64,000 nt of DNA, taken from Alphaproteobacteria bacterium (GTDB taxonomy: Bacteria; Pseudomonadota; Alphaproteobacteria; Rhizobiales; JAJFHC01). Below, in pieces: positions 13,362 to 37,330 of this stretch. Position numbers and translations under genes: made by a program. Every line of letters begins with the position of its first letter. The first letter of the stretch is position 1. The DNA is taken from assembly GCA_021775805.1 (NCBI GenBank), contig JAJFHD010000015.1:62001-126000 (forward strand), read 5' to 3'. Under the pieces are notes generated by a model. The model saw only the letters and a list, made by a program, of their open reading frames with translations. It was not told the DNA's origin and made no database searches.

Positions 13362-15227
13362 GTGAGGTTCGCTGTTGGCATATTGACCATCGGGTTGCTT
13401 CTGCTCGGGCATGGCCTGGCTCAGGCGGAAACCCGGGTCGCCCTGGTCATCGGCAATTCGAACTACCAGAACGTCTCGAGCCTGCCCAACCCGGCCAACG
13501 ATGCCGCCGACATGACGGCCATGCTCAAGCGCATGGGCTTCAAGGTGCGCGAGGCGCGCGATCTGGGGGTCAACGCCATGCGTGCGACCCTGGCTCAGTT
13601 CAGCGACGATACCGTAGGCGCCGATGTTGCCGTGGTGTTCTATGCCGGGCACGGCATGGAGGTCGACAAGCAGAACTATCTGATCCCGGTGGATGCCAGA
13701 CTGGCCACCGACCGGCGCGTCCGGTTCGAAGCCATTCATCTCGATGACGTAACCGGCGCCATGGAAGGCGTGAAGGGCTTGTCGATCGTCCTGCTCGATG
13801 CCTGCCGCAACAATCCGTTCATAAGGTCCATGAAAAAGACGTCCGCGTCGCGCAGCGTCGGCAGGGGACTGGCGCGGGTCGAACCGCAGGCGGGATCCCT
13901 GATTGGTTTTGCCGCCCAGGCCGGCACGATCGCCGATGACGGCAAGGGCCGCAACAGTCCCTACACAAAGGCCCTGCTTTCGCATCTGCCCGAACCGGGT
14001 GTCGATCTGCGGCTGACATTCGCTAAGGTCCGCGACACGGTCATGAAACTCACCGGCAGGGCGCAGCAGCCGTTCACCTACAGTTCGCTTCCGGGCAGAA
14101 ACATTTACCTCACAACGCCGGAAAAACCGCAGGTCAAGGCGCCGGCGGCGTCACCGGCCTTGGCAGCTGACAAGGAAACCGTTTTCTGGAGCACCATCAA
14201 GAACAGCAAGAACCCCAGCATGTTCAACGAGTACCTGAAACAGTTTCCGAACGGAACGTTTGCCGGGATTGCGCGTGTGAGGCTTGTGGAGCTGCAAAAG
14301 CAAGCGCTGGTCGGAGCCGCGCCGCTCGTCAAGCCCGCGCCCAGAGCGGATGCAGGCGCGATTCGGGTGGGCAGTACATTCCGCGATTGCACGGGATGTC
14401 CGGAGATGGTCGTGATTCCGCCCGGTTCCTTCGTCATGGGGTCTCCGGCGGGCGAGAAGGGGCGCGCAAAGGATGAAGGCCCGGCGCACCGGGTTTCGAT
14501 TCCTGAGGCATTTGCGGTTGGCAAATTTGAAGTCACCGTTGAAGAGTTTACCACCTTCGCAAAGGAGGCGGGGCTTCTGACACTCAGCATTTACAACAAG
14601 GAGAAGGAATGCTGGGTCTATGACAAGAAAGCCAAGTGGAAAAAGAGGCAGGGTCGATACTGGCAAAAACCGGGCTTCCCTCAAGGCAGGTCGCATCCGG
14701 TTGTGTGCGTCAGCTGGAACGATGCGGCGGCCTACGTCGATTGGCTGAACGGCAAGGTTTCGGGCACACCCTACCGGCTGCTGTCCGAGGCCGAGTGGGA
14801 ATATGCCGCCCGCGGTGGTTCAACCGAACCCTATGGCTTCCCGGCGGCAGGGGCACAGGTTTGCCGCTTCGCCAATGGCGCGGACCGGACCGTCAAAACC
14901 ACGTTTGCCTGGGCCAATCGCCAATGTTCGGACGATATCGCCTTTACGGCGCCCGTCGGCTCGTTTCCGCCCAACAGGTTCGGCCTGCACGACATGATCG
15001 GCAATGTCTGGGAGTGGGTCGCGGATTGCTGGCACGATTCCTATCGCAATGCTCCCGCCGACGGCAGCGCCTGGACCCGCGGCAAGCAGTGCGGCTACAA
15101 GGTTTTGCGCGGTGCATCCTGGAACATGAGCATTGCTGAATTCCGATCCGCCAACCGTAGCAAGCTGGCAAACCAGGCCCGGGCGATTGCCAACGGGTTC
15201 CGGGTTGCCAGGACTCTCTCGCCGTGA
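13362..15227 (+). CDS. Caspase-like peptidase fused to a formylglycine-generating-enzyme (SUMF1) domain
   Basis: The frame opens upstream, but the GTG at 13362 begins a signal peptide (residues 1-22, LTIGLLLLGHGLAQA), giving a 621-residue product. Residues 24-250 are a C14 caspase fold: the family start TRVALVIGNSNYQN, catalytic H97 in VVFYAGHGME and C148 in LSIVLLDACRNNPF. A linker (about 250-340) holds a KQFPNGTFAGIARVRLVELQ segment common between these modules. Residues about 345-620 are an FGE/SUMF1 domain (CPEMVVIPPGSFVMGSP, VTVEEFTTFAKEAG, EWEYAARGG, GNVWEWVADC, GFRVART). The protein is probably periplasmic. The FGE part likely binds ligands or partners rather than activating sulfatases, since no sulfatase gene is nearby. 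Confidence 0.9.
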   Translation: MRFAVGILTIGLLLLGHGLAQAETRVALVIGNSNYQNVSSLPNPANDAADMTAMLKRMGFKVREARDLGVNAMRATLAQFSDDTVGADVAVVFYAGHGMEVDKQNYLIPVDARLATDRRVRFEAIHLDDVTGAMEGVKGLSIVLLDACRNNPFIRSMKKTSASRSVGRGLARVEPQAGSLIGFAAQAGTIADDGKGRNSPYTKALLSHLPEPGVDLRLTFAKVRDTVMKLTGRAQQPFTYSSLPGRNIYLTTPEKPQVKAPAASPALAADKETVFWSTIKNSKNPSMFNEYLKQFPNGTFAGIARVRLVELQKQALVGAAPLVKPAPRADAGAIRVGSTFRDCTGCPEMVVIPPGSFVMGSPAGEKGRAKDEGPAHRVSIPEAFAVGKFEVTVEEFTTFAKEAGLLTLSIYNKEKECWVYDKKAKWKKRQGRYWQKPGFPQGRSHPVVCVSWNDAAAYVDWLNGKVSGTPYRLLSEAEWEYAARGGSTEPYGFPAAGAQVCRFANGADRTVKTTFAWANRQCSDDIAFTAPVGSFPPNRFGLHDMIGNVWEWVADCWHDSYRNAPADGSAWTRGKQCGYKVLRGASWNMSIAEFRSANRSKLANQARAIANGFRVARTLSP

Positions 15228-31875: not shown

Positions 31876-32085
31876 TCAGGCATAGGTTTGTAGAAAAACC
31901 ACCAATCCCAGATTTGCCGCCACCAGCCACACATGAATGTGCTTGAACGCCTTGTTGTCCCAGTCGCTGTTTTGCGGGCCGCCAAAGAACAGATGCCAGA
32001 TCAGGAACAGCAGATTGACGATCAGCAGGTTCACGACGATACCGCTGTCGAGGGTAAACAGGAATTCTTGTATCGTTTCAATCAT
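31876..32085 (-). CDS. Small two-helix membrane protein (intact copy)
   Basis: A 69-residue protein starting MIETIQEFLFTLDSG, with helices at about residues 15-35 (IVVNLLIVNLLFLIWHLFF) and 51-68 (VWLVAANLGLVVFLQTYA), joined by GGPQNSDWDNKAFKHIH. GGAGGG sits 7 bases before the ATG. No family recognised. Its 5' half and leader are repeated at 34059-34231 with the start codon changed, which supports this copy as the functional one. Downstream of the alpha/beta hydrolase gene on the same strand. Confidence 0.7.
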   Translation of the reverse strand: MIETIQEFLFTLDSGIVVNLLIVNLLFLIWHLFFGGPQNSDWDNKAFKHIHVWLVAANLGLVVFLQTYA

Positions 32086-32131
32086 AGGAAATCCCTCCGA
32101 GCTCCAATCGGATTGATCTGCTCACTATGCC
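31956..32131. repeat. Direct-repeat copy 1: 5' part and leader of the small membrane-protein gene
   Basis: This stretch is nearly identical over about 170 bases to 34059-34231, covering codons 1 to about 45 of the small membrane protein plus its ribosome site and leader. Weaker similarity continues for about 25 bases further. Confidence 0.85.
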
Positions 32132-32250
32132 TTATTGAATTTAAGGTTTTGGCTTCAGTATCTTGAAGACTTGAGGAAACTTTTAGGCAATGGCTTAACT
32201 GATCATTGACTTTGAGGTTTCTGGACGGGTTGGCAATTGGCCGTGACGCC

Positions 32251-33141
32251 CTATCGTCGATTCAGGAACGACTCGATCGCCTCGTTCACCGGTTCCGGAT
32301 TTGTCACAGGTGACATGTGTCCGCCTTTGGCGATGGTCACGAACTCATGATCGTTGAGGCGCTGCCTGATCAGGTTCGCCACCCCGCCTGCGGCCAGTGT
32401 CGTGTCGGCGGCACACACAAGCAAGGTGGACCAGGGAAACGATCCGTACTGGGCAAGTTGGGTTGTGGCATTGAACGCTCCCGGCCATTCCGCGACGACC
32501 TTCGGCATCATGCGTGAAACGCCCAACCGGCGATCGTCGGGCATGGCGGCCCAGGCCTCCGGTCCCATCCAGTAGGTAATGAAACCCTCTGCGGCGTCGA
32601 GCGTTCGGTCGTCTGCCACCGCGGCGGTCTGCCGGTCCCTTGCCTGTCGAATTTCCTCGAAGGCTGCCTGCTCTCCGGCTTCCTCCAGGAGATGAAAACA
32701 GACCGGTTCTATGATCGTGAGCGACCGCACATGATCTGGATTGTCGCGTGCGGTGAGGATGGCCAGGAGGCCACCGTAGGAGTGACCGACCAGATGAACC
32801 GGTCCTCCGGCCAGCTCGACAAAACGCCGGACACGGGTGAGGTCATCCTGGAATGAAAAGCGCTCGGTCTCGGCGGTCGGGGCACCATAACCGCACAGGT
32901 TTGGTGCAATAACGCGGAAGTGTGGAGACAGACGCTCAACCAGGCCACGCCACTGACCTTTTGAACTTGCACTGCTGTGGACCAGAACAACCGGATCGCC
33001 CTGGCCTTTGTCGACAAAGCCCCAACGGTCTTCGTCTTGTTGCTTATTCTCCACGAGGCGCTCCGATTCTCGATTTCTGGGTGTGGCGTTCAGCGGCCTG
33101 ATACTCAACTGACCTTGGAGGATTGTCGCTTCGAGCTCCAT
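32251..33141 (-). CDS. Alpha/beta hydrolase
   Basis: A 296-residue hydrolase. The domain begins near residue 40: GFVDKGQGDPVVLVHSSASS has the oxyanion region, LVGHSYGGLLA the nucleophile Ser, and TIAKGGHMSPVTNPEPVNEA the catalytic His. The first ~38 residues have no similarity and the true start may be downstream. It ends a run with the DUF1989 gene just upstream on the same strand (21 bases), so it may be co-transcribed with it. The substrate is unknown. Confidence 0.88.
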   Translation of the reverse strand: MELEATILQGQLSIRPLNATPRNRESERLVENKQQDEDRWGFVDKGQGDPVVLVHSSASSKGQWRGLVERLSPHFRVIAPNLCGYGAPTAETERFSFQDDLTRVRRFVELAGGPVHLVGHSYGGLLAILTARDNPDHVRSLTIIEPVCFHLLEEAGEQAAFEEIRQARDRQTAAVADDRTLDAAEGFITYWMGPEAWAAMPDDRRLGVSRMMPKVVAEWPGAFNATTQLAQYGSFPWSTLLVCAADTTLAAGGVANLIRQRLNDHEFVTIAKGGHMSPVTNPEPVNEAIESFLNRR

Positions 33142-33162
33142 TCCTGAGGGATTTGTCGGGCA

Positions 33163-33768
33163 TCACGCAGCTCCAAGTATCTCGTAATGAACTTCCGTGG
33201 GCATCTGTCCGACGCCGTTGATCGGCGACAGATCCATCGGACATGTGGACAGGGCAACCACGCAATTCATATGCGCGCGCAGGACCACGTAATCGCCAGG
33301 CTTCGTCTTTGGCGGGTCGAAGGCAAGAGCGCCGTCGGGTGCCCAGGGAATGTTCATGAACAGGTTGAGCGGGCAGGGCGTTTCGGGGGCCGTCAAGGCG
33401 AGTTCGGACAAGGCGGAAGCCAGGTTGTCCGTGCAGTTGTCGTGATAATCCGTACAGCCCAGTTGCTCGTAGCGATGCACGTCGCAGGCAGCAATCAAGG
33501 TATCATGAATGCCGGGTGAGGTGTCTTGCTCAAGGGTCAGGATGGCTTGTCGATTGTTGGTGTAGAGCGGCTTGCCGTGCACCGGCATCATTGTCTTGAG
33601 ACTGGCGCGCGTGTGTTCCATTGACATGAACTCGTCGAGCCCCGGAATGGCGAACGCCCAGGTGTCGACCACTTGGGATCCATGGGTGTTGATGATCTTG
33701 ATTGCCTCTCCAGCCTCGAGTTTTGCGGCTTTTCCCCGTCGCGCCGGCACCGTGAATTGCTCTGTCAT
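33163..33768 (-). CDS. DUF1989 (urea carboxylase-associated) protein, copy A
   Basis: A 201-residue protein from MTEQFTVPARRGKAAKLEAG, preceded by GGGAGG. DUF1989 signatures include HGSQVVDTWAF, MPVHGKPLYTNNRQ, the Cys/His-rich CDVHRYEQLGC with HDNCTDN, and PLNLFMNIPW. Some family members accompany urea carboxylase; others stand alone with unknown roles. It reads divergently from a promoter region whose other side once led into a class II amidotransferase (now only its first 23 codons). A second copy lies at 35837. Confidence 0.88.
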   Translation of the reverse strand: MTEQFTVPARRGKAAKLEAGEAIKIINTHGSQVVDTWAFAIPGLDEFMSMEHTRASLKTMMPVHGKPLYTNNRQAILTLEQDTSPGIHDTLIAACDVHRYEQLGCTDYHDNCTDNLASALSELALTAPETPCPLNLFMNIPWAPDGALAFDPPKTKPGDYVVLRAHMNCVVALSTCPMDLSPINGVGQMPTEVHYEILGAA

Positions 33769-33826
33769 TGTGGACCTCCCCGAAAGATTCATTTGCCCGA
33801 TAGTTTTCCACTTTTTGCAGTGATCG

Positions 33827-33865
33827 CACAACAGCGCACACTTTTGTGACAAATTCTGGTAGTTA
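33827..33865. promoter_or_regulatory. Conserved divergent-promoter block, copy A
   Basis: CACAACAGCGCACA, four variable bases, then TGTGACAAATTCTGGTAGTTA is repeated with identical spacing at 36431-36469, between the other DUF1989/amidotransferase pair. Flanking bases have drifted more, so this 39-base block has been selectively kept or recently duplicated. It may be an operator or promoter core. Confidence 0.5.
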
Positions 33866-33983
33866 GCGCGGTGCCGTCATGCTTTTCAACATGACCGGTC
33901 ATTGTCATCGACTGGAATCGTGGATCCGCACCTCCTGCCGGAGGTTGGTATCTCGGTCGACCTGCATTCCGGAGGGAACGTTA

Positions 33984-34053
33984 ATGTGCCGTTGGATGAC
34001 TTACTCGGGAGACCCGGTTTATCTCGAGGATCTGATCTACAAACCAGGACATT
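33984..34053 (+). pseudogene. Class II glutamine amidotransferase, first 23 codons only
   Basis: ATG after GGAGGG, then MCRWMTYSGDPVYLEDLIYK followed by PGH, identical at protein level to the start of the amidotransferase at 36566. The match stops abruptly at about 34052, where the sequence joins the inverted fragment of the small membrane-protein gene. The nucleophile Cys2 is present but the domain is gone. Confidence 0.85.
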
Positions 34054-34058
34054 ATTAT

Positions 34059-34185
34059 CCCAATCGCTGTTTCGCGGGCCTCCAAAGAACAGATGCCAGT
34101 TCAGGAACAGCAGATTGACGATCAGCAGGTTCACGACGATACCGCTGTCGAGGGTAAACAGGAATTCTTGTATCGTTTCAATCGT
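34059..34185 (-). pseudogene. Truncated copy of the small membrane-protein gene, start codon lost
   Basis: On the minus strand this matches the first ~45 codons of the gene at 31876-32085, including the Shine-Dalgarno sequence, but the initiator ATG reads ACG (34183-34185). The 3' half is missing at the junction with the amidotransferase fragment. Confidence 0.8.
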
Positions 34186-34463
34186 AGGAAATCCCTCCGA
34201 ACTCCAATCGGATTGATCCGTGCACTATGCCACCGGGGATTTAGGCTATTGGCTTTGATGAAGTGACAATTTGACTAAAAGTTTAAACACCGAATTAGGC
34301 TTGCGTTGAGGCTTTGCCAGGCACGGGGCAGACAGGTCCGGTTCGATGTCGGCCGAGATTGAACCCGGCCTTTCGCCGGCGTCGGGTGGATTAACTGTTT
34401 GGCACAGACAGCAATTGAGGTATGCCGGTCCGGGTGGGGAAGTCCAGTCGCAGGTAAGGGGCG

Positions 34464-35810
34464 TTGGTCTTGAGCGGTTCAGGTCCGAGCAGCAATCAAC
34501 TGGAGGCACGATCGCGGTCGGTGGCTTGGTTTGCTGTATTGCTTCTGGTCGGCCTCAGCCCGGCACTCGTGAACGGGTTTCCTCTGTATTTCCACGATTC
34601 CGGACTTTACAGCGGTGCCTACCCTGCGGCTCAAAGCATCAGGTCGTTGATGCCGTCGATGTTGGCCAAGCTGGTTTTTCCGTTGTTTGGAGCCTATGCG
34701 CTTCCCGTAGTCAATGCAGTGTTTCTTGCAATTGTGTTGGTGAGGTTCTCACAAACCGTCCTGACGCGGGTGCCGAATGCTGTGATGGTCATAGCTGTCG
34801 TTTTGAGCGGCACGCCGTTTCTTGTTTCGGCGATCTTGCCGGATATCTGGTTGGCAATCGCCACGGTATCTCTGCTCACGCTCCTCGCACGGTTTTCATG
34901 GATCGACTTTGCGATCTGTTCGGTCGCGTTGGCGGGTCACGGCCTCGACATCTATGTTGCGCTCTCTCTGCTTGTCCTGTCTGTCATTTGCCCTGGGGAG
35001 GATCGCTGGCGTGCCGCCAGGCTGATCGCCTCAATCGTCGTCTGCGTGGTTCTGCTTGCCGGTATTGCAAACACGCTTGTCCGGGGCAGTTTCCCGGCGC
35101 CCAGACTGGGTACTGCTGTGATCGTGTCAAAAGTGATCAATGACGTTCCTGAAGCGTATGACGGGTTTTGTGTCTCGGCGCCGAGTGAAAAGATCTGCCG
35201 ACTCAAAGACAAGATCGATAAACGCAGAGCGTTGGGCTTAGACGAGGACAGCCAGTATCTCTGGCATGCCGGCCTGACGTGGTGGAGCGGCCCGGTGGAT
35301 GAAACCCTTTCGTGGCCTGAATTCAATGCCGCCGGACTCAAGTTGGGGTGGCATGCTCTGAAATCATATCCGTTCACCTATGTGAAGGAATCGTTGCTGG
35401 ACTACTGGCGCATGTTCTCGGTGAAAGGATGCCTGGGCAACGGGCTGGCATATCTCGAAGCCGATCCCGGAACTGACAGTTTTGTCGGATACCTGACCCA
35501 CAGGGGCACGGATTCGCTGGCACGCCGGGGTTTGCTGGGAAATACACCTTTCTGCTCTGTGGTTTCGTGGGCCAAAATAATTGTCTTTGCGGCTGGTTTG
35601 TTCGCGGCGTTGTATCTGTTCGTCCGCGGTCAGGGCGCAATTCGTCGGCAAACAATACTTCTGTCAGGGGCGATGTTTGCAAACGACTTTGGTTTCGCTT
35701 TCACGTCAGGCGGCTTCCCAAGATATCATGAGCGCATAGTGCTCCTCGCGGCCGTTATCCTGCTCCTTGCGATCAACCGGTGGCGACAGTCCCGACAGGA
35801 GGGTTTGTAA
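34464..35810 (+). CDS. Polytopic membrane protein of unknown function
   Basis: A 448-residue protein with roughly ten hydrophobic helices. The N-terminal part reads FAVLLLVGLSPALVNGFPLY, with a membrane core to about residue 205. A large extracytoplasmic region follows (about 205-370, with four or more Cys and WHAGLTWWSGPVDETLSWPE), then two or three C-terminal helices. The layout recalls GT-C-type glycosyltransferases, but no catalytic motif is evident. Start is probably TTG (34464 or 34470). It sits between the two DUF1989/amidotransferase copies. Confidence 0.65.
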   Translation: MVLSGSGPSSNQLEARSRSVAWFAVLLLVGLSPALVNGFPLYFHDSGLYSGAYPAAQSIRSLMPSMLAKLVFPLFGAYALPVVNAVFLAIVLVRFSQTVLTRVPNAVMVIAVVLSGTPFLVSAILPDIWLAIATVSLLTLLARFSWIDFAICSVALAGHGLDIYVALSLLVLSVICPGEDRWRAARLIASIVVCVVLLAGIANTLVRGSFPAPRLGTAVIVSKVINDVPEAYDGFCVSAPSEKICRLKDKIDKRRALGLDEDSQYLWHAGLTWWSGPVDETLSWPEFNAAGLKLGWHALKSYPFTYVKESLLDYWRMFSVKGCLGNGLAYLEADPGTDSFVGYLTHRGTDSLARRGLLGNTPFCSVVSWAKIIVFAAGLFAALYLFVRGQGAIRRQTILLSGAMFANDFGFAFTSGGFPRYHERIVLLAAVILLLAINRWRQSRQEGL

Positions 35811-35836
35811 CCCGTTCGGATGTGCCGGCCATGGCC

Positions 35837-36415
35837 TCACAGTGCCGGGAGAATTTTGTAGTGAACTTCCGTGGGCTTCTGCCCGATGCCGTTTATCGGA
35901 GACATATCCATCGGGCAGGCGGAGAGGGCAACCACACACCTCATGTGCGTCCGCAGGGTGACGTTGTCGCCGGGCTTGGTCATTGGCGGATCGAAGGCGA
36001 GCATTCCCTCGGCGGACCAGGGGTTGTTCATGAAAAGGTTGAGCGGGCAGGGTGTTTCCGGCGCCGTCATGTCAAGTTCCGCCATGGCGGCGGCCAGATT
36101 GTCGGTACAGTTGTCGTGATGTTCCGTGCAGCCCAGTTGCTTGTAGCGGTGCACATCGCAGGCCGCAATCAGGGTGTCATGTACGCCTGGCGATGTGTCT
36201 TCCTCAAGGGTGAGAATAGGCCGGCGGCGGTTGGTGTGCAGCGGTTTGCCAAGAACCGGCATCATCGTCCGAAGTGTCCCCCGGCTGTGCTCCATGAACA
36301 TGAATTCGTCGAGGCCGGGTAACGCGAAGGCCCATGTATCGACCACCTGGGATCCGTGGGCAGTTCGGTCATGGTCGGTGTCTCCTTGAAGTGCGTTCGA
36401 TCCATAGTCTGTCAT
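35837..36415 (-). CDS. DUF1989 protein, copy B (N-terminally deleted, probable pseudogene)
   Basis: From HGSQVVDTWAF onward this matches copy A (33163) at about three quarters of positions by eye, including CDVHRYKQLGC, HDNCTDN and PLNLFMNNPW. The original start (ATG at 36372 with AAGGAG) encodes M-T-E and then jumps to codon 29 of copy A, in the wrong frame: about 25 codons are deleted with a frameshift, and that frame ends within 40 codons. An upstream in-frame ATG at 36415 could restore reading with an unrelated N-terminus. It is divergent from the intact amidotransferase. Confidence 0.75.
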   Translation of the reverse strand: MTDYGSNALQGDTDHDRTAHGSQVVDTWAFALPGLDEFMFMEHSRGTLRTMMPVLGKPLHTNRRRPILTLEEDTSPGVHDTLIAACDVHRYKQLGCTEHHDNCTDNLAAAMAELDMTAPETPCPLNLFMNNPWSAEGMLAFDPPMTKPGDNVTLRTHMRCVVALSACPMDMSPINGIGQKPTEVHYKILPAL

Positions 36416-36430
36416 TAACGGCCGCTGGTA

Positions 36431-36469
36431 CACAACAGCGCACAGATGTGTGACAAATTCTGGTAGTTA
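36431..36469. promoter_or_regulatory. Conserved divergent-promoter block, copy B
   Basis: Same 14-base plus 21-base block and 4-base spacing as at 33827-33865, between DUF1989 copy B and the intact class II amidotransferase. It probably contains the shared promoter or operator of this divergent pair. Confidence 0.5.
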
Positions 36470-36565
36470 TACCCACGGTGCCTAATGTTGATCCATTTCA
36501 CCGCGACAATTTTGGTTTGCCGGCAAGGCGCGTTTCGGGCAACCCACACACCGGAGGGAATTTTC

Positions 36566-37330
36566 ATGTGCCGTTGGATGACTTATTCCGGAGACCCGGT
36601 TTATCTCGAGGATCTGATTTACAAACCCGGACATTCGCTCATCGAGCAAAGCCTGAAGGCCGAAGAGGCCAAAGTTCCGACCAACGGCGATGGCTTCGGC
36701 ATCGGATGGTATGGCGAGCGTGAAGTGCCGGGAACCTACCGTGAGGTGCTGCCTGCCTGGAATGATCCCAATCTTCGCAGCCTGGCCCAGCAGATCAAGG
36801 CAGGTCTGTTCTTTGCCCATGTCCGTGCCTCTACCGGCACTGAAACCATTCGTCCGAACTGTCATCCGTTCACCCACAACCAGTGGCTGTTCATGCATAA
36901 CGGTCAGATCGGCGGTTATGCCGGTCTGCGCCGCGATCTGGAAAGCCTTATTCCCGACGAGCTTTACCGCCATCGCCGCGGGACAACCGACAGTGAAGTG
37001 ATCTTTTACCTGCTTTTTGCCCATGGTCTCGAGCAGGATCCTGAAGCCGCAATCAAGGCCACGATCACATGCATCGAGGACAAGATGCGTGAGCGAGGCG
37101 TCGAAAGCCCCTTCCGTTTCACGGCGGCAGTTTCCGATGGCGATCGACTGTTTGCCGTTCGGTATTCGTCCGACGACCGCCCGCCCAGTCTCTATCACAG
37201 TCAGGATACGTCCCAGTTGATCGTCGTGTCTGAGCCCATAGACCTGCCTGAGTACGAATGGCGTCCGGTTCCCGAAAATCACGTTCTCAGCATTGTCGAC
37301 CAGCGGGTTGCCGGCATGATACCGCTGTAA
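36566..37330 (+). CDS. Class II glutamine amidotransferase (EgtC/YafJ-like)
   Basis: A 254-residue Ntn-hydrolase-type glutaminase. After Met removal Cys2 of MCRWMTYSGDPVYLEDLIYK is the nucleophile. Further motifs are NGDGFGIGWYGEREVPGTYR, ADGQ-like FAHVRASTGTETIRPNCHPF with substrate-binding Arg, and FMHNGQIGGYAGLRRDLES. A stand-alone glutaminase of this kind donates ammonia or hydrolyses gamma-glutamyl compounds, as EgtC does in ergothioneine synthesis, but no other ergothioneine gene is visible. The start follows GGAGGG. Paired divergently with DUF1989. Confidence 0.9.
   Translation: MCRWMTYSGDPVYLEDLIYKPGHSLIEQSLKAEEAKVPTNGDGFGIGWYGEREVPGTYREVLPAWNDPNLRSLAQQIKAGLFFAHVRASTGTETIRPNCHPFTHNQWLFMHNGQIGGYAGLRRDLESLIPDELYRHRRGTTDSEVIFYLLFAHGLEQDPEAAIKATITCIEDKMRERGVESPFRFTAAVSDGDRLFAVRYSSDDRPPSLYHSQDTSQLIVVSEPIDLPEYEWRPVPENHVLSIVDQRVAGMIPL

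Follow-up and report, generated by a model that had tools for sequence, protein, structure and literature searches.

Organisation of the locus

The window analysed (64,000 nucleotides, positions 62001-126000 of contig C47) belongs to a 6.6-Mb draft genome of 152 contigs with a contamination estimate of 7.86%. The following features were located within the window between positions 31876 and 37330:

31876-32085, minus strand: intact SMP (small membrane protein) gene, encoding a 69-aa hydrophobic protein with no Pfam or NCBIfam match
31952-32130, minus strand: source copy of the SMP core repeat, comprising the 5' leader and the 5' 44 codons; its identity to 34052-34230 is 94%
32131-32185, no strand: flank of the SMP repeat, diverged to 58% identity with 34231-34285 in the same register
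32251-33141, minus strand: alpha/beta hydrolase gene (PF00561/PF12697), present only between the left SMP and left DUF1989 genes
33163-33768 (ATG at 33768), minus strand: left DUF1989 gene, intact (PF09347, E = 2.4e-47; PDB 3oru/3siy, E = 1e-62)
33827-33865, no strand: conserved 39-bp site in the left divergent spacer, 36/39 identical to the right copy
33984-34053, plus strand: left amidotransferase 5' fragment of 22-23 codons, matching the intact copy
34052-34060, no strand: amidotransferase/SMP fragment junction, with an overlap of about 2 bp in the alignments
34052-34230, minus strand: SMP 5' fragment, the copy, with its start ATG changed to ACG and the last 25 codons missing
34464-35810, plus strand: gene for a predicted 448-aa membrane protein, present only between the right SMP fragment and right DUF1989
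35837-36372, minus strand: right DUF1989 gene, broken by a 70-bp deletion which removed about 24 N-terminal codons and shifted the frame
36431-36469, no strand: conserved 39-bp site in the right divergent spacer, 36/39 identical to the left copy
36566-37330, plus strand: intact class-II glutamine amidotransferase gene, 254 aa (PF13230, E = 2.1e-15; TIGR03442, 189.8 bits)

The order in the first half is SMP (-), alpha/beta hydrolase (-), DUF1989 (-) and amidotransferase 5' fragment (+), and in the second half SMP 5' fragment (-), membrane protein (+), broken DUF1989 (-) and amidotransferase (+), after which comes a gene for DAHP synthase. A sequence-only reading had proposed that a divergent DUF1989-amidotransferase pair is present twice, which was borne out by profile matches and by self-comparison, where direct repeats were found for DUF1989 (33159-33458/35833-36132, 78%), the spacer site (33827-33865/36431-36469, 92%), the amidotransferase 5' region (33953-34053/36535-36635, 87%) and the SMP region (31952-32185/34052-34285, 85%). 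All homologous pairs are co-ordered direct repeats, as in a tandem duplication, and no inverted repeat joining the two copies was found in the self-comparison. The same reading's description of the locus as scrambled was not supported, since every homologous piece keeps plain tandem order and strand.

As had been reported, each copy has lost a different member. In the left copy DUF1989 is whole and the amidotransferase keeps only its first 22-23 codons, joined to a 5' portion of the SMP gene; the fragment differs from the intact copy by four synonymous and no amino-acid changes (22 codons), and past codon 22 its frame enters SMP antisense and reaches a stop after 44 residues. In the right copy the amidotransferase is whole and DUF1989 is broken near its start by the frameshifting 70-bp deletion. 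The fused junction at 34052-34060 was seen in the alignments and the breaks were confirmed base by base; the claim that the two copies, with one intact member each, supply one full set was supported.

The coding part of the SMP fragment (34052-34185) corresponds to the 5' 44 codons of the intact gene, with the substitutions I29N and Q38R. It had been called inverted, which is correct relative to the amidotransferase only; relative to its intact source it has the same orientation, as a direct repeat at an offset of exactly +2,100 bp. With no inverted repeat present and the fragment oriented as its source, an inversion was rejected as the cause of the junction.

The SMP product is probably a membrane protein, by prediction, and the gene is an apparent orphan: searches of the order (396 other genomes, E<=1e-4), of plasmids and of viral contigs found no relatives. 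A search of its own genome returned the SMP repeat (E=2e-75), the next match having an E value of about 1, which places the repeat well outside anything expected by chance. Carriage on a mobile or multicopy element was rejected, as SMP sequence occurs at two genome places only and in none of the plasmids or viral contigs.

The middle gene differs between the copies, and no remnant common to both was found. The alpha/beta hydrolase has 12 matches within its own genome and its best relatives are 36-38% identical. The 448-aa membrane protein was not assigned to any family in the Pfam/NCBIfam profile search and had no counterpart among 40 relatives; its own genome carries a 50% identical paralogue on contig C8.

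Families of the DUF1989 and amidotransferase proteins

The left DUF1989 protein matched PF09347 at full length (model positions 2-168 of 168) with 161.2 bits against a gathering score of 27, whereas the right copy matched positions 24-167 of 168 only (121.3 bits), its N-terminus missing, in agreement with the damage originally noted. The zinc cysteines C95, C112 and C176 are present in 99-100% of 85 relatives and in both copies, and His109 is also retained in the right copy. In the DUF1989 domain of Tdm the corresponding residues are C263/C279/C343, H276 and D346, and Cys95/Cys112/Cys176, His109 and Asp179 of the left copy are spaced like them (PMC12560246). DUF1989 here groups with 3ORU/3SIY, the Tdm domain and similar zinc proteins, and probably encodes a zinc-dependent enzyme acting on a small molecule, in the same superfamily as TMAO demethylase and carboxyguanidine deiminase. 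UAAP1 and UAAP2 are the subunits of carboxyguanidine deiminase. The present protein differs from UAAP and Tdm in standing alone (about 200 aa, no GCV_T fusion) and in scoring far under the curated cut-offs, with 90 vs 284.7 bits for TIGR03424 (UAAP1), 71.5 vs 205.95 bits for TIGR03425 (UAAP2) and 108 vs 1100 bits for the TMAO demethylase model.

The intact amidotransferase most likely starts at 36566 (MCRWMTYSGD) rather than at the ORF start, 36485. Relatives were found in 138 of 397 genomes of the order. The protein resembles EgtC in covering nearly the whole of the TIGR03442 (EgtC) model and in its Met-Cys N-terminus, but its score lies under the curated cut-off of 218.65 and no above-cut-off match for EgtB or EgtD was found in the genome; assignment as EgtC was rejected on both grounds, and the protein is described here as EgtC-like. 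Elsewhere in the window, a weak match to the EgtB model was observed at 14400-15209, inside a 715-aa open frame which is probably another formylglycine-enzyme-like domain protein.

In other genomes, 80 DUF1989 loci inspected with flanks of up to 6 kb and 19 amidotransferase loci with flanks of about 1.5 kb all lacked the partner gene, and a conserved partnership of the two is therefore unsupported. Clustering of the genes neighbouring relatives of either protein gave no conserved partner informative on function.

A conserved site in the divergent spacers

Apart from the 39-bp site, the two divergent spacers are 43-46% identical, which is near the level of unrelated alignments and significantly below that of the site itself (Fisher, p=3e-8). 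The site lies at a similar distance from the DUF1989 start in both copies, some 55-60 bp. A 21-mer taken from it occurs only twice in the genome, allowing <=3 mismatches, and no convincing match was found in related loci; membership of a wider regulon was rejected on these two results. The simplest reading is that the site is a common control element, a candidate divergent promoter/operator, the promoter role being one that we infer.

Uneven divergence and history of the duplication

In a tree of 87 rows the two DUF1989 copies group together, with all 85 relatives outside (support 100/100), which makes the duplication lineage-specific; the nearest relatives compared share about 67-68% protein identity. 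Over 172 stop-free codons the copies differ with Ka 0.123 and Ks 1.173 (changes at the three codon positions, 25/16/75), which indicates that both were under selection through most of their separate history and that the break is recent. Change at four-fold sites of the amidotransferase (2/10) did not differ significantly from that in DUF1989 (34/75; p=0.18).

The SMP region is not of the same apparent age. The core is 94% identical (168/179) and the adjoining flank 58% (32/55; p=2e-9); four-fold sites are changed at 1/17 in the core compared to 34/75 in DUF1989 (p=0.002), with a Ks of 0.07 vs 1.17. Such differing ages across the unit mean that more than one event is needed. Homology in the flank is weak, with a local score equalled in 26 of 2000 shuffles; at the offset of 2100 it gives 34/60 matches, rank 1 of 1200 offsets. 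A close core beside a diverged flank suggests late gene conversion or re-copying.

From the observed order, orientation, breaks and divergences we infer a sequence of events, which as a whole we consider probable: old tandem duplication, reciprocal decay and late homogenisation of SMP. An ancestral SMP(-)-[x]-DUF1989(-)-amidotransferase(+) unit would have undergone an ancient tandem duplication in this lineage, and purifying selection would have kept both copies functional for long, the divergent control site being present in each. A deletion over the unit boundary would then have cost the left amidotransferase its 3' part and the right SMP gene its 3' end, leaving the remainders joined tail to tail, and the 70-bp deletion would have taken the start of the right DUF1989. 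The middle genes may have come to differ through insertion or differential loss, and late homogenisation with the intact gene, or a fresh copy made from it, would account for the right SMP core. A tandem unit of this kind predicts the right SMP gene after the left amidotransferase, tail to tail, and 34052-34060 is that boundary; as the homologous pieces keep tandem order and strand, a boundary deletion suffices and inversion is unnecessary. The intact left SMP, hydrolase and DUF1989 genes and the right membrane protein and amidotransferase genes give one full set. No undivided ancestral unit was found among the genomes compared, none of which is from the same genus or family, and given the weak flank homology (58%) SMP may have been absent from the old unit altogether.

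The mosaic is best fitted by an old duplicate that had its core homogenised afterwards with the intact SMP gene, the main rival being a recent templated copy. Under that alternative two unrelated events occurred, an old tandem duplication of the DUF1989-amidotransferase pair alone and, recently, breakage of the left amidotransferase followed by repair with SMP filler from 2.1 kb away. It accords with an SMP core far younger than the DUF1989 duplication, an overlap of only about 2 bp and the complete absence of SMP 3'-end sequence at 34052, and we regard it as a tentative possibility; beyond the core, however, homology of about 58% continues in exact register, which is unexpected for a recent copy, and the fragment sits and points as tandem duplication predicts.

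Status of the right DUF1989 copy

The native ATG of the right copy (36372, with AAGGAGA upstream) now yields an out-of-frame peptide of 36 residues, and the original frame can be entered only through an upstream ATG at 36415, where a ribosome-binding site is not clear. A living, diverging paralogue with a new N-terminus from this ATG could explain why 172 codons remain open, why the zinc-site Cys 95, 112 and 176 and His109 persist and why Ka/Ks is about 0.1, although so low a ratio is equally expected for a recently broken gene. Against it, the native ribosome-binding site feeds the frameshifted reading, the copy lacks P8, R10, G12, A14, N27 and T28, all invariant across 85 relatives, its branch is longer (0.23 vs 0.13 for the left copy), and it carries four private departures at conserved sites (S49F, Y108H, I140N and A165T) compared to two in the left copy. 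We consider a living gene improbable. Slightly more doubtful again is that a re-started, working right DUF1989 and a 39-bp site co-regulating the half-loci make this a functional pair split over two promoters, not mere decay.

Mis-assembly, or binning of pieces from two strains, might be suspected in a draft of this fragmentation and estimated contamination, but is very unlikely, given that the longest exact string common to the copies is 83 bp (32001-32083/34101-34183), that they are otherwise well diverged (DUF1989 78% identical), that the locus lies within a long contig, about 94 kb in, and that both breaks (the deletion and the start-codon loss) are simple mutations.

Significance

Reciprocal loss after tandem gene duplication, that is, duplication followed by degeneration, is generally known in bacterial genomes. 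This locus resembles it in its direct repeat units, in the inactivation of a different member in each and in the retention of the full set, and differs in involving a head-to-head pair, a conserved spacer site and an unevenly diverged SMP core that suggests gene conversion; the literature found on duplication with conversion consisted of general works only. As an instance of reciprocal loss the locus is neat but unremarkable, ordinary genome wear and no new kind of system, and pseudogene is the appropriate annotation for the left amidotransferase frame and for the right DUF1989 frame. It shows no new mechanism. It is a clear single-genome record of a duplicated divergent pair pared back to one set, in which the conserved spacer site points to a shared control element and the patch of uneven divergence to gene conversion.
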